From the NCBI GenBank assembly GCA_019428945.1, contig JAHYJM010000014.1:1-33570 (forward strand): DNA of 33,570 bases, in the 5' to 3' direction. Positions 22,595-28,117 of this stretch are shown piece after piece. The translations under genes were made by a program, and so were the position numbers. The notes beneath the pieces were generated by a model. That model was not told where the DNA came from. It did no database searches and worked only from the letters and a program-made list of their open reading frames with translations. Source of the stretch: Bacillota bacterium. Lineage in GTDB: Bacteria > Bacillota > Dethiobacteria > DTU022. Positions within the stretch are counted from its first letter, which is position 1. Each line of letters opens with the position of its first letter.

Positions 22595-25500
22595 TTAACA
22601 TTCGCTAAAACCGCAGGCTTCGCATTTCAAGCAGCCTTCAGCTCTGATCAAAGCACAAGTGCCGCAATCCGGACATAATTCGAGCTGATGATTGCCATTT
22701 TGTATCTCATTACCTGCTTCGAAAAGCGCTAATTTACGCAGAGCCTGACCGATGGCATCGGGTACGCTCATTATTCGGTTCGGGCCAAAGCCCACTGAAC
22801 GGGCGCCTCCTATTCCTTCAAGCTGGGTAACAATTTCATCCACACTTACACCGCACCTTAAGGCTAGCGAAATCAGTCTTGCTATAGCTTCAGTAAAGGC
22901 TACAACATCGCTGCCGGCTTTTCCGATCTGGGCGAATAACTCAAATGGCCTGCCATCTGCTGTGTTTACTGTGACAAAAAGGTTGCCGAGAGCAGTTCTG
23001 ATACTGGTTGTGTTGCCGCTTAAAGTTTTTGGCCTTTTTGTTGGTTTTAGCGTATCTTCTGTATTTCCGTCGCCGACATTTAAAACCTGCTTTGTTCTTG
23101 AGCTGTCCCTGTAAATTGTTATACCTTTGCACCCGGCCTCCCAGGCAGTAATGTATGCATTTTTAACATCATCGGCAGTAGCTTCCTGTTTCAGGTTAAT
23201 GGTTTTACTGACAGCATTATCGGTGTAACGCTGAAAAGCAGCCTGATGACGCACATGCCAGCTGAAATCAATTTCCATGGCAGTTTTAAATAAGTTTTTA
23301 TACTTATTGGGCACATCTGAGTCTTCCGGAATTTTACCGGTGCTGGCGATCTCCTGGATAAGTCCTTCACTATAAAAGCCTTCTTTTTGAGCAATCTCCA
23401 GGAAGACAGGATTGACCTCTGGTAGATCTATGCCACCTAAAATATTTTTCCGGATAAAGGCTATGCTGAAGTAAGGTTCAATGCCACTACTGGCTCCGGC
23501 CAGAATTGAAATTGTGCCGGTGGGGGCAATAGTTGTACGCGTGGCATTTCGTACCCGATCTTCATCTCTGCCGGTGTCATGAATACTGCCTTTAAAGTTG
23601 GGGTAAACATCTCTTTCAGCAGCCAGCGCATATGATTCTTTTTTTGCCTCATAATTAATAAATTTCATTATTTCTTCAGCAGTTTCAATTGCCTTTTCAC
23701 TGTCGTAAGTAATTCCCAACCTGACCAACATATCATGCCAGCCCATTATGCCCAGGCCGATTTTGCGGTTGCCTTCTTTGTGCATGGCGGCTATTTCAGG
23801 GATTACATAGTTACTGGCGTCTATCACATTGTCAAGAAAACGAACTGCAGTCTTAACCGTTTTTGCGAGTTTATCCCATTCAATATTTTGTTTTTCAGAT
23901 ACAAATTTACCGAGATTGATTGAGCCGAGGCAGCATGCTTCGTAAGGGAGCAGTGGTTGTTCGCCACAGTTATGAACTACGATTCCGTTTGCATCAAAGG
24001 AGTTAATGCCGGGAACCGGTACATCGTAAACTTCTTCAATTTGATCGGGGGTGATTGATTCTATTGTTATGGTGTAGCGCTCACGATTTAATTGTCTTTT
24101 ATATTGTTTTAAAGCGGCGGCAAGTCGGGAATTTTTAGCTGTATCGTTGAAGCCTACCTTATCTGAGAACCTGATTAAATTGTCTTTAGTTATAACCAGC
24201 TCGTGTTGAGCTTTAGTCTTGTATAACTTATAAGAGCCCTTGCCATCAGGTAGTTTTGCCCGGCCTTCTTTTCTTCTCTCTGCATAAATAGTACTTATAA
24301 CACCAAACCGGGCCAGCATACGCTGAATCGCTTCCAGTCTGGCAAGGTCACTTTGGGCCAGCCTCACTGATATCCCCTTTTTCTGGGAGCCCTGCACAGA
24401 ACCATCAGCATCAAAAATACCTTTAAGCATACCTTTGCTGAAGGCTGATGAAGTAGCAGTTTCGAGGAACGGAGTGATAGTTTTATCGCCAGGCCGCATC
24501 CCGAGGGTGAGAGCTACTTTTTTTAAAGATGCCAGGCTCATTCTATATTCACTGCGGTTGCTTACTTTCCACCAGCCTTTAAAATCTGCCCGACAGGGCA
24601 AGGTTTGGGCTGCCTCAAAAGCTTTGTTAACAATGCCCAGGTTGCCATGGTCCGGCCAGGCCGATAGAAGCGCTTTATCCTTCTTTAGAGTGCCGTCACC
24701 GATTAACAGGCCAATCAGGTAGCCTTCATCTTCACTGTAGAGCCCCGGCCATTCTTTAACTGGTTGATGGTTATGGAGAATTAGTTGATCTCCCGGTTTT
24801 AATGCGCCTGCTTCAATCCATTTAGTATCTATACTATAACGGGTTTTTTTATTAACCCTGAGGAGCCGATGATCGGCAGTCGCCCTTACCTTAAAGCCTT
24901 CCTTTGTTTTGATTGATAAAAGCTGCTTTTCACCGGTAGAGTAAAAGCCCTTATTGCCGGTCTGGTACGGTTCGCCGTTAATAATTAAAGTTGACTTAAC
25001 CCCGATTAGATTTTTAACTGTCTTTGGACCAGCGGTGGTCATGACGAAAGTATCCCCTGGAACACAAGGATTGGTCGTTTCATAAATACCGATATTAGGG
25101 GTGGGGTTGTACTGATTCATTCTGTCAATGAAAATTATACCCGGGTCGCCCTTTCCCCAGGCTTTTTGAACAATCAAATCGAATACTTCCCTGGCATCAA
25201 GCTGGACAGGGTTGCCGGTTTCAGGATCACAGTATATTTCTTTGTTCCGGGGATTGATCAGGTTGTAAAGGGGATCGGGATCATCGCCAATTGCTTTTCG
25301 CATAAAATCATCGGAAACGGTAACCGATAGGTTAAAATTATTTATATCATCTTCTTTTTCTTTGCAGACAATAAATTCCAATATGTTGGGATGGTTGTAA
25401 ATCAGTGAGCCCATATTGGCACCGCGCCTGGTTCCACCCTGCTTAACAGCTTCTGTTGCAGCATCAAATATTTTGAGGAATGAAATTGGCCCGCTGGCTA

Positions 25501-25912
25501 CACCATTAGTAGATCTTACAAGATCGTTGCTCGGGCGCAGGCGATCGAAGGCAAAACCTGTGCCGCCCCCGGTTTTTTGAACCAGGGCCATATTCTTAAG
25601 GGCGGTGAATATACCTTCCATGCTGTCTTCGAGTGGTAATACAAAACAGGCGCTTAACTGTTGTAGCTCTCGGCCTGCATTCATAAGTGTCGGCGAGTTG
25701 GGCATAAATTCTGCCTGAGCCATCATGTTGTAAAATGAATCCTCAATATTTATTATTTCTTTTTCATCTTTGCCATAATTTTTTTCGATCGAGGCAATAT
25801 TCGCTGAAACTCTGCGTAACAGGTCTTCGGGTTGTTCGGTGGGGTTGCCTTTTTCATCTTTGATCAGATAGCGTTTTTCATAAGTAATACGGGCGTTTTG
25901 GCTCAAATCCAT
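22595..25912 (-). CDS. nrdJ: adenosylcobalamin-dependent (class II) ribonucleotide reductase containing an intein
   Basis: The precursor has 1105 residues: 739 of enzyme plus a 366-residue intein. The enzyme reduces ribonucleotides to deoxyribonucleotides using a B12-generated thiyl radical. Visible residues: C89 in LSACFVLP (redox pair), GGGTGF and KQGGTRRGANM blocks, then N281-P282 interrupted by the intein and resumed by C649-G650-E651, so N-x-C-x-E of the active site is rebuilt only after splicing; C661 in EACCLGSINL is the likely second redox cysteine. PTGTISILAGASSGIEP and a TSCPD domain follow, and the C-terminus has paired cysteines (CPDCGTC, CLKCEACGFSEC) that probably bind zinc or re-reduce the active site. 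GGAGG precedes the ATG by about ten bases. No subunit for radical generation is needed by class II enzymes and none is present. Confidence 0.96.
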   Translation of the reverse strand: MDLSQNARITYEKRYLIKDEKGNPTEQPEDLLRRVSANIASIEKNYGKDEKEIINIEDSFYNMMAQAEFMPNSPTLMNAGRELQQLSACFVLPLEDSMEGIFTALKNMALVQKTGGGTGFAFDRLRPSNDLVRSTNGVASGPISFLKIFDAATEAVKQGGTRRGANMGSLIYNHPNILEFIVCKEKEDDINNFNLSVTVSDDFMRKAIGDDPDPLYNLINPRNKEIYCDPETGNPVQLDAREVFDLIVQKAWGKGDPGIIFIDRMNQYNPTPNIGIYETTNPCVPGDTFVMTTAGPKTVKNLIGVKSTLIINGEPYQTGNKGFYSTGEKQLLSIKTKEGFKVRATADHRLLRVNKKTRYSIDTKWIEAGALKPGDQLILHNHQPVKEWPGLYSEDEGYLIGLLIGDGTLKKDKALLSAWPDHGNLGIVNKAFEAAQTLPCRADFKGWWKVSNRSEYRMSLASLKKVALTLGMRPGDKTITPFLETATSSAFSKGMLKGIFDADGSVQGSQKKGISVRLAQSDLARLEAIQRMLARFGVISTIYAERRKEGRAKLPDGKGSYKLYKTKAQHELVITKDNLIRFSDKVGFNDTAKNSRLAAALKQYKRQLNRERYTITIESITPDQIEEVYDVPVPGINSFDANGIVVHNCGEQPLLPYEACCLGSINLGKFVSEKQNIEWDKLAKTVKTAVRFLDNVIDASNYVIPEIAAMHKEGNRKIGLGIMGWHDMLVRLGITYDSEKAIETAEEIMKFINYEAKKESYALAAERDVYPNFKGSIHDTGRDEDRVRNATRTTIAPTGTISILAGASSGIEPYFSIAFIRKNILGGIDLPEVNPVFLEIAQKEGFYSEGLIQEIASTGKIPEDSDVPNKYKNLFKTAMEIDFSWHVRHQAAFQRYTDNAVSKTINLKQEATADDVKNAYITAWEAGCKGITIYRDSSRTKQVLNVGDGNTEDTLKPTKRPKTLSGNTTSIRTALGNLFVTVNTADGRPFELFAQIGKAGSDVVAFTEAIARLISLALRCGVSVDEIVTQLEGIGGARSVGFGPNRIMSVPDAIGQALRKLALFEAGNEIQNGNHQLELCPDCGTCALIRAEGCLKCEACGFSEC
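23969..25066 (-). mobile_element. LAGLIDADG intein in nrdJ (366 residues)
   Basis: In-frame insertion at precursor residues 283-648. It starts with C1 (CVPGDTFVMTT, block A), has the block B motif ATADHRLL with T63 and H66, two LAGLIDADG helices (LIGLLIGDG at 117-125, acid D124; LKGIFDADG at 214-222, acids D219 and D221), block F EVYDVPVPGINSF, and ends H365-N366 before C649 of the enzyme. All residues for standard Cys1/Asn-Cys+1 splicing and both endonuclease acids are present, so it looks active for splicing and possibly homing. Removing it restores TTNP-CGEQPLLPYEA. The insertion point is the catalytic cysteine codon. Confidence 0.95.
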
Positions 25913-26118
25913 AAAAATATCCTCCCCGGGAAATTATTATTAATTATATTCTCTATCTATTGCTTTTTTCATTCCTATTATTTAAAATAAATTTTGTTTT
26001 GTTCACTTTTTTTCCTGGTACGAAAATTACTCTTTTTTCGTAAGTAAAGCAATGATATAATAACAGGTGAGTTTTTTTCGTTTTTGATGTTATGTAAAGG
26101 AGGGGAAATGCATAGGCT

Positions 26119-26211
26119 ATGGCAAAAGAAAAATCACGTAAAGCACTTAAAAGACAGCGTAAGAAAAGAAGACGGGCCAAAAAGAGGAAGAGGTTGAAAG
26201 GCCGGACCTAG
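26119..26211 (+). CDS. candidate 30-residue very basic peptide
   Basis: A short frame beginning MAKEKSRKALKRQRKK and consisting of about 60 percent lysine and arginine, ending LKGRT. Such composition suits RNA or ribosome binding. A strong AAAGGAGG sequence (26096-26103) lies 15 bases before this ATG but only four before an ATG at 26108 in another frame that encodes a 29-residue peptide (MHRLWQKKNHV). Composition favours the basic frame; the binding site favours the other. A TATAAT box lies at 26056-26061. It is upstream of the FmdB gene, same strand. No family recognised. Confidence 0.45.
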   Translation: MAKEKSRKALKRQRKKRRRAKKRKRLKGRT

Positions 26212-26257
26212 TAAGCCGCCTGGCGGCAAAAATATAAATGTGAGAGGAGGTGCAGTT

Positions 26258-26440
26258 TTGCCACTTTACGAATTTTACTGTTCAGATTGTGGGAAGAAAA
26301 CTGAAGAGCTGTGCAGTAGTACTGTTAATAAGATTAAATGCCCAACCTGTGGGAGAGAGGCCGGTAGGGTTATGTCAGCTTTCCGAACCGGCAAAAGTTC
26401 TACGGGCGGTGGAACCGCCTCCTCAAATTGCGGCGGGTGA
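26258..26440 (+). CDS. FmdB-type zinc-ribbon protein, tail interrupted by in-frame TGA
   Basis: A 60-residue protein with a small zinc ribbon: C8-x2-C11 and C28-x2-C31 (YEFYCSDCGK, KCPTCGRE), typical of the FmdB regulatory protein family. It starts at TTG 26258 with GAGGAGG seven bases upstream; the longer GTG frame from 26240 would start inside that site. After a glycine/serine stretch it ends SNCGG-TGA. Reading on through the TGA at 26438-26440 gives SKTSCSSC and a second TGA (26465-26467). Family members in clostridia commonly end in a serine/glycine/cysteine-rich tail, so the TGA stands where a cysteine would be expected. This could be a nonsense change, a sequence error or selenocysteine. 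Confidence 0.85.
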   Translation: MPLYEFYCSDCGKKTEELCSSTVNKIKCPTCGREAGRVMSAFRTGKSSTGGGTASSNCGG

Positions 26441-26503
26441 AGCAAAACCAGCTGCAGCAGTTGCTGACAGTATTCTATTCTTAATAGCAGCAAGGGGGCG
26501 CTT

Positions 26504-28117
26504 ATGACTAAGTATATCTTTATTACCGGCGGAGTAGTTTCATCTCTGGGCAAGGGAATAACAGCGGCTTCTCTCGGCTGCTTACTGAAAAACAGGGGTT
26601 TGAAATTAACCATTCAAAAATTTGATCCCTACATTAATTATGACCCCGGAACAATGAGCCCCTATCAGCACGGTGAGGTTTTTGTAACTGAAGACGGTGC
26701 TGAAACAGACCTTGATTTGGGGCACTACGAAAGATTCATAGACGAACATTTAACCAGGGACAATAATGTAACTGCAGGCAAAATTTACTGGTCGGTTATT
26801 GATGATGAGCGGGAAGGCCGGTACCAGGGTAACACTGTCCAGGTTATACCTCATATCACAGATCAGATAAAAAAATGTGTCACCCGGCTGGAGCGAAATG
26901 GCGATCTCGATATAGTAATTACAGAAATTGGCGGCACGGTTGGAGATATAGAGAGTTTGCCCTTTTTAGAAGCTATACGCCAGCTCAGGTATGAAATTGG
27001 CTGGGAAAATGTATTATTCATACATGTTACACTTGTACCCTACCTTCGCATGTCAGGCGAGCAGAAAACCAAACCGACACAACACAGCGTTAAAGAACTC
27101 AGGTCGATCGGTATACAACCCGATTTGATTGTCTGCCGTACAGAACAACCGCTTGGTGATGATTTAAGGCGTAAGATTGCTCTGTTCTGTAATGTTCAGC
27201 CGGAAGAAGTAGTCGAGAACATCGACACAGATGTTATTTATGAAGTGCCTCTGCTACTTCAGAAACAGAATCTTGATCAAATGGTTGTGGAGAAGCTTAA
27301 TATCGAATGTAGAAGCGCTGATATGAAAGTGTGGAGCGATATGGTGCAGCAGGCCAAAAAGTTGGAGGAAGAAGTTACTGTTGCCCTGGTAGGTAAATAT
27401 GTGGCTTTGCCTGATGCGTATATAAGCATTAATGCTGCCCTTGCTCATGCCGGACTTGCTCACAATGTCAAAGTCAGGGTTATTTTGGTTCCCGCTGAAG
27501 ATATAGAAAAGGGCAATGATGCCAGCATATTGGATCAGGTAGATGCTATTCTTGTGCCGGGTGGTTTTGGTGAACGCGGTATTGAAGGTAAAATAAGCGC
27601 CGTACGCAAAGCCCGCGAAGAAAAAATTCCCTTTCTTGGTTTATGTCTTGGCATGCAGTGCGCTGTGATTGAATTTGCCCGCAATGCAGCCGGAATTAAG
27701 GATGCTCACAGCACAGAGTTTGCACCACAAACATCGGGTCCTGTGATCAATTTTCTGCCTGGCCAGGAAGACAACACCCGTATTGGAGGAACCCTGCGGC
27801 TTGGCGCTTATCCCTGCACTATTAAGAAAGGCACCCTTGCCGAAAAGGCATACGGGGAAAAACTGATATGTGAAAGACATAGACACCGATATGAATTTAA
27901 TAATGACTATATGACGGTATTAGAAAGAGCAGGGATGGTATTCAGCGGTTACAACGAACAGGATGAATTGGTCGAAATGATCGAATTAAAAGATCATCCA
28001 TGGTTTGTGGCAGTGCAGTTTCATCCGGAGTTTAAGTCAAGGCCGACCCGTTCTCATCCTCTTTTCAGGGGTTTTATCGGCGCTGCAATAGAGATGAAAA
28101 AGAATCGGGAGAATTAA
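26504..28117 (+). CDS. pyrG: CTP synthase
   Basis: This enzyme aminates UTP to CTP using glutamine and ATP, in the last step of pyrimidine nucleotide synthesis. The 537-residue length is standard. The synthetase domain opens with the P-loop [12 protein letters not shown] and has [14 protein letters not shown]; the glutaminase domain has the nucleophile cysteine in GLCLGMQ and the catalytic His-Glu in FHPEFKSRP. An AAGGGGG site precedes the ATG. It lies 63 bases after the FmdB stop, and its 3' end overlaps the convergent ANTAR gene by 44 bases. No pyrimidine attenuator leader was evident upstream. Confidence 0.97.

Follow-up and report, generated by a model that had tools for sequence, protein, structure and literature searches.

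A genome-resolved candidate selenoprotein of the FmdB zinc-ribbon family in a Bacillota genome

A short gene of the FmdB zinc-ribbon family very probably encodes a bacterial selenoprotein, its in-frame TGA at 26438 serving as a selenocysteine (Sec) codon. It lies in the 33,570-nucleotide stretch of DNA analyzed here (the window; contig JAHYJM010000014.1 of assembly GCA_019428945.1). We infer Sec insertion at this UGA from the reading frame, the alternation of Cys and TGA among relatives, a conserved hairpin downstream and the presence of the machinery genes. FmdB was already named as a rare selenoprotein family in 2008, and sequence comparison makes this locus a well-supported, genome-resolved candidate member.

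The text of the 2008 study describes an FmdB family selenoprotein ("putative regulatory protein") from two marine reads of the Global Ocean Sampling and gives its motif as CxxU (Zhang and Gladyshev 2008, PMC2398784). Reviews of 2022 and 2026 list it without an accession, with the motifs U/CxxU or UxxU, the latter with two Sec (PMC9312934, PMC13188914). Compared by motif text, the marine protein and the window protein belong to one family (TIGR02605), and in both the predicted Sec falls within a Cx2C-type motif. The window gene differs in its single tail Sec, its genome-resolved and family-wide occurrence, its Cys-containing sisters and its SECIS at a fixed position. For this selenoprotein family, so far represented by two marine reads, there is now a genome, together with dozens of relatives and a conserved SECIS.

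Gene and predicted product

The frame from TTG 26258 reads LPLYEFYCSDCGKKTEELCSSTVNKIKCPTCGREAGRVMSAFRTGKSSTGGGTASSNCGG-TGA-SKTSCSSC-TGA (Table 1). A first-pass annotation, made from the window sequence, had noticed an in-frame TGA at a cysteine position of an FmdB-type tail, with C-x2-TGA spacing. Both observations are borne out: the DNA encodes CGG-TGA-SKTSCSSC-TGA, and under the Sec reading the Ser/Gly-rich tail ends C58-G-G-U61-x4-C66-S-S-C69. The protein scored above the cut-offs for TIGR02605 (FmdB family zinc ribbon; 42.2 bits, cut-off 31.3) and PF09723 (38.8 bits, cut-off 34.4), and the zinc ribbon cysteines are Cys8, 11, 28 and 31. Like Cys-containing FmdB proteins (PF09723/TIGR02605), it joins a zinc ribbon to a Ser/Gly/Cys tail of the form CxxC-x4-CxxC, but Sec would replace the second Cys of the first tail CxxC. 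AlphaFold2 predicted the zinc ribbon confidently (pLDDT about 85) and the tail as disordered (pLDDT 43–50), which says nothing on tail structure. The AGGAGG upstream of the start is kept in most relatives, and pyrG (CTP synthase) lies 3' of the gene, from 26504.

Table 1. Features of the fmdB locus, in window coordinates
Feature	Position	Strand	Details and basis
fmdB-family selenoprotein gene (predicted)	26258..26467	+	TTG start, 69 residues, Sec at position 61, terminal TGA stop
Shine-Dalgarno region gagaggaggtgcagtt	26240..26257	+	directly 5' of TTG start; strong; from sequence
zinc ribbon (CxxC...CxxC), residues about 1-41	26258..26380	+	PF09723/TIGR02605 matches; AlphaFold2 four-strand fold
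tail motif C-G-G-U-S-K-T-S-C-S-S-C (CxxU-x4-CxxC)	26429..26464	+	sequence, alignment of relatives
in-frame TGA, predicted to be read as selenocysteine	26438..26440	+	shared by 34 genomes; sister genus g7 has a Cys codon
predicted SECIS hairpin GCUG-CAGC-[AGUU]-GCUG-a-CAGU	26451..26471	+	loop 26459-26462, 18 nt after UGA; fold -10.3 kcal/mol
terminal TGA stop, also within predicted hairpin 3' arm	26465..26467	+	TGA in 34/34 Sec relatives

Conservation of the in-frame TGA

FmdB matches were detected in 61 of the 71 genomes of the taxonomic order. Within the window's own family, a TGA occupies the site equivalent to 26438 in 34 of the 37 genomes with a detected orthologue (52–88% protein identity). 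These 34 assemblies are spread over many genera; the named close relatives are uncultured Bacillota, several of them labelled Syntrophomonadaceae. The three exceptions all belong to genus g7 and carry TGC at the site (C-S-G-C-S-G-K-x-C-x-x-C); at 71 columns, the tree is too short to tell gain from loss in this genus. In other families of this order and class, both positions of the first tail CxxC are usually Cys. The comparison of homologues that the first-pass annotation had proposed therefore yielded TGA or a Cys codon at the site, and TAA or TAG stood at either tail CxxC/Sec site in no orthologue. Selenocysteine, the first option named in the annotation, is supported by these results. The annotation's other options, a recent nonsense mutation truncating fmdB or a sequencing error, would be permitted by a single sequence by itself but are refuted by the same TGA in 34 independent assemblies, and their probability is negligible.

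A TGA also occurs at the other, first tail Cys, giving UxxC on read-through, in two genera of another family (f5): g27 (L065 and L067, genomes G053 and G054; tail GGG-U-GSC-SSSSC) and g32 (L068 and L114, genomes G062 and G063; tail GG-U-GGC). The two groups are separate on the tree, and the hairpins of all four tails are unlike that of the window. Apparent replacement of one or the other tail cysteine by Sec in different lineages suggests that the CxxC pair has a chemical activity, either redox or metal-binding; the tail of this widespread family would then be chemically active.

In a phylum-level sample of 299 genomes, among the matches listed, TGA was confined to the window's own family. Searches of plasmid and phage collections returned no match. 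Distant FmdB-like proteins (delta-proteobacterial, Nitrospirota and others) had a TGA within the FmdB tail in no case, and most carry an unrelated long C-terminal part. One relative (L051, genome G029) retains both the TGA and the nucleotides of the hairpin, with Ser replacing two tail cysteines and, leaving the Sec without a CxxU partner.

A conserved hairpin downstream of the TGA

A CAGC-AGUU-GCUG core lies 18 nt behind each conserved TGA (34/34 TGA rows), and in the relatives the core corresponding to 26453–26467 is invariant. Codons +5 to +9 read TGC AGC AGT TGC TGA in all TGA members of the family, except that one has TCC at +5. Across codons +5 to +8, 2211 of 2211 same-residue pairs are identical, i.e. 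there is zero synonymous change, compared with 50% identical pairs for Ser/Cys codons in the gene body (40% for Ser alone). Although the codon-pair and conservation counts treat related genomes as separate, synonymous change is free elsewhere in the same genes, so common descent by itself does not account for its absence from the core.

The core was present in none of the 26 tails that lack a TGA at the 26438 site, the nearest Cys sisters (g7) included; among these 26 are L114, which is UxxC on read-through, and a divergent paralogue (L117). Hairpin and TGA thus occur together. The nearest Cys sisters spell the residues of the hairpin region AGC AGC TGT TAG or AGC ACC TGC TAA. The pattern TGA-N12-TGCAGCAGTTGCTGA was found exactly once per genome in 33 genomes, all of the window's family, with no occurrence in the remaining 65 class members searched and 0 for a reversed-pattern control. 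This once-per-genome pattern and the sharing of the same TGA by 34 genomes indicate that the in-frame TGA is not a chance occurrence. We also considered the 12-mer CAGCAGTTGCTG as a hairpin of other genes; its 2 further sites in the genome lie inside other genes, without a selenoprotein-like frame, and were rejected.

The first-pass annotation had noted short complementary runs behind the TGA without seeing a convincing bacterial SECIS. The CAGC/GCTG run is real and forms the apical hairpin; its doubt about a SECIS was misplaced, as a hairpin matching the bacterial SECIS (bSECIS) model is present. We used the constraints quoted in PMC13188914: a loop of 3–9 nt with G in the first two loop places, a stem of 4–16 bp, a spacing of 16–37 nt and MFE ≤ -7.5. 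The window hairpin agrees in its 4-nt apical loop (AGUU, G second and then U), a helix above the 4-bp minimum (8 bp, one bulge), the 18-nt spacing and the folding energy of -10.3 kcal/mol. It differs from the model in covering the gene's own stop codon, beyond which it partly extends. Several relatives miss the energy limit alone, because their hairpins have little beyond the 4-bp core; the lower stem is variable, and in some relatives either a different fold competes or the stem is limited to 4 bp (-4.8 to -6 kcal/mol).

In a single sequence, the hairpin is weak evidence. Of the TGA triplets in the window, 11.9% pass our version of the bSECIS model, and 26 of 200 shuffled versions of the 43-nt stretch folded equally well. 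The invariance of the core makes a covariation test impossible. An Rfam scan of 26100–26700 gave chance matches only.

Selenocysteine machinery

The source genome (2.36 Mb, 170 contigs, 98% complete) encodes SelA (599 bits), SelB (404 bits, cut-off 242) and SelD, whose genes form one cluster on contig C35, and a tRNA-Sec (selC; 71.1 bits) with anticodon TCA (UCA). The search for selA, selB, selC and selD advised in the first-pass annotation thus recovered all four. Among the 34 TGA genomes, a full selB is missing in four (G002, where it is partial, G006, G025 and G031), all draft assemblies; tRNA-Sec is present in G031.

The selD gene (L003 3563–4615) itself contains an in-frame TGA, in ...SMTASAG-TGA-AAKIGPEAL..., the known Sec/Cys site of the enzyme. 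As a second Sec gene, it shows use of the pathway in the source genome. SelD is a protein unrelated to FmdB, although both UGAs would be decoded by common machinery within one genome; the selD hairpin has a GUU loop, 33 nt downstream of its TGA. With this internal TGA, ORF callers place the start of selD too late.

Alternative readings

The best-surviving rival, itself very unlikely, holds that the first UGA is a real stop and that the conserved stretch is another RNA element, for example one controlling pyrG. The core is indeed conserved at the RNA level, and pyrG is directly next in 24 of the 34 TGA loci. However, the translation of the stretch after the TGA is conserved too (S/T-x-x-x-C-S-S-C) and can be aligned with the tails of Cys orthologues whose frame is uninterrupted. 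The distance between element and TGA is constant at 18 nt. The g7 Cys sisters lack the element, and it persists at loci with no pyrG detected beside it (L035, L037-L040, L050, L052 and L061).

UGA is recoded as Trp or Gly in other bacteria, and a Trp code or near-cognate read-through without Sec could in principle insert another amino acid here. We consider this highly improbable: the non-TGA orthologues have Cys at the site, never Trp or Gly, and the full Sec machinery is present. Moreover, selB, selD and the fmdB gene itself end in TGA, which is therefore an ordinary stop elsewhere in the genome.

Recoding of both UGAs, which would yield a longer product or, in the window, a fusion into pyrG, is more remote still. 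All 34 Sec genes use TGA as their second stop, whereas the other tails end variously in TAA, TGA or TAG, and in the window this codon shares its frame with the pyrG ATG 13 codons on. Yet relatives show neither sequence conservation nor a consistent frame after the second TGA, and in the window no hairpin of model strength lies behind it (-4.5 kcal/mol). The terminal TGA falls within or adjoins the hairpin 3' arm, and its place there explains why it is never TAA or TAG. We take the second TGA to be the true stop.

Proposed mechanism and significance

Under the selenoprotein reading, a ribosome arriving at the in-frame UGA at 26438 would meet SelB with Sec-tRNA-Sec, recruited by the hairpin through its AGUU loop 18 nt downstream, and Sec would be inserted. 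Eight further codons would then be translated before the second UGA, with no conserved hairpin behind it, acts as the stop, giving a 69-residue product composed of a zinc ribbon and a disordered Ser/Gly tail. The locus would be a compact case: within one frame, two UGA codons separated by 24 nt carry different meanings, and the hairpin includes the true stop.

The CxxU pair may be redox-active, as a selenol/thiol pair, or may bind metal. Our literature search found no established biochemical role or functional study of FmdB proteins. We also considered whether the UGA is a selenium-dependent switch that yields full-length FmdB with selenium and a 60-residue zinc ribbon lacking the tail without it, reporting selenium or redox state, possibly to pyrG; this appears unlikely. 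Standard annotation stops such genes at the first TGA, and database entries are thus likely to be truncated.

Neighbouring genes

Just upstream of fmdB, a Lys/Arg-rich mini-ORF of 30 residues (MAKEKSRKALKRQRKKRRRAKKRKRLKGRT; window 26120–26212, + strand) is near identical in about 20 relatives. It had no Pfam match and looks like a real small gene. Further upstream, at 22595–25912 on the - strand, the large chain of a ribonucleotide reductase is split by an intein that carries a LAGLIDADG endonuclease domain (Pfam matches Ribonuc_red_lgC, Intein_splicing and LAGLIDADG_3).
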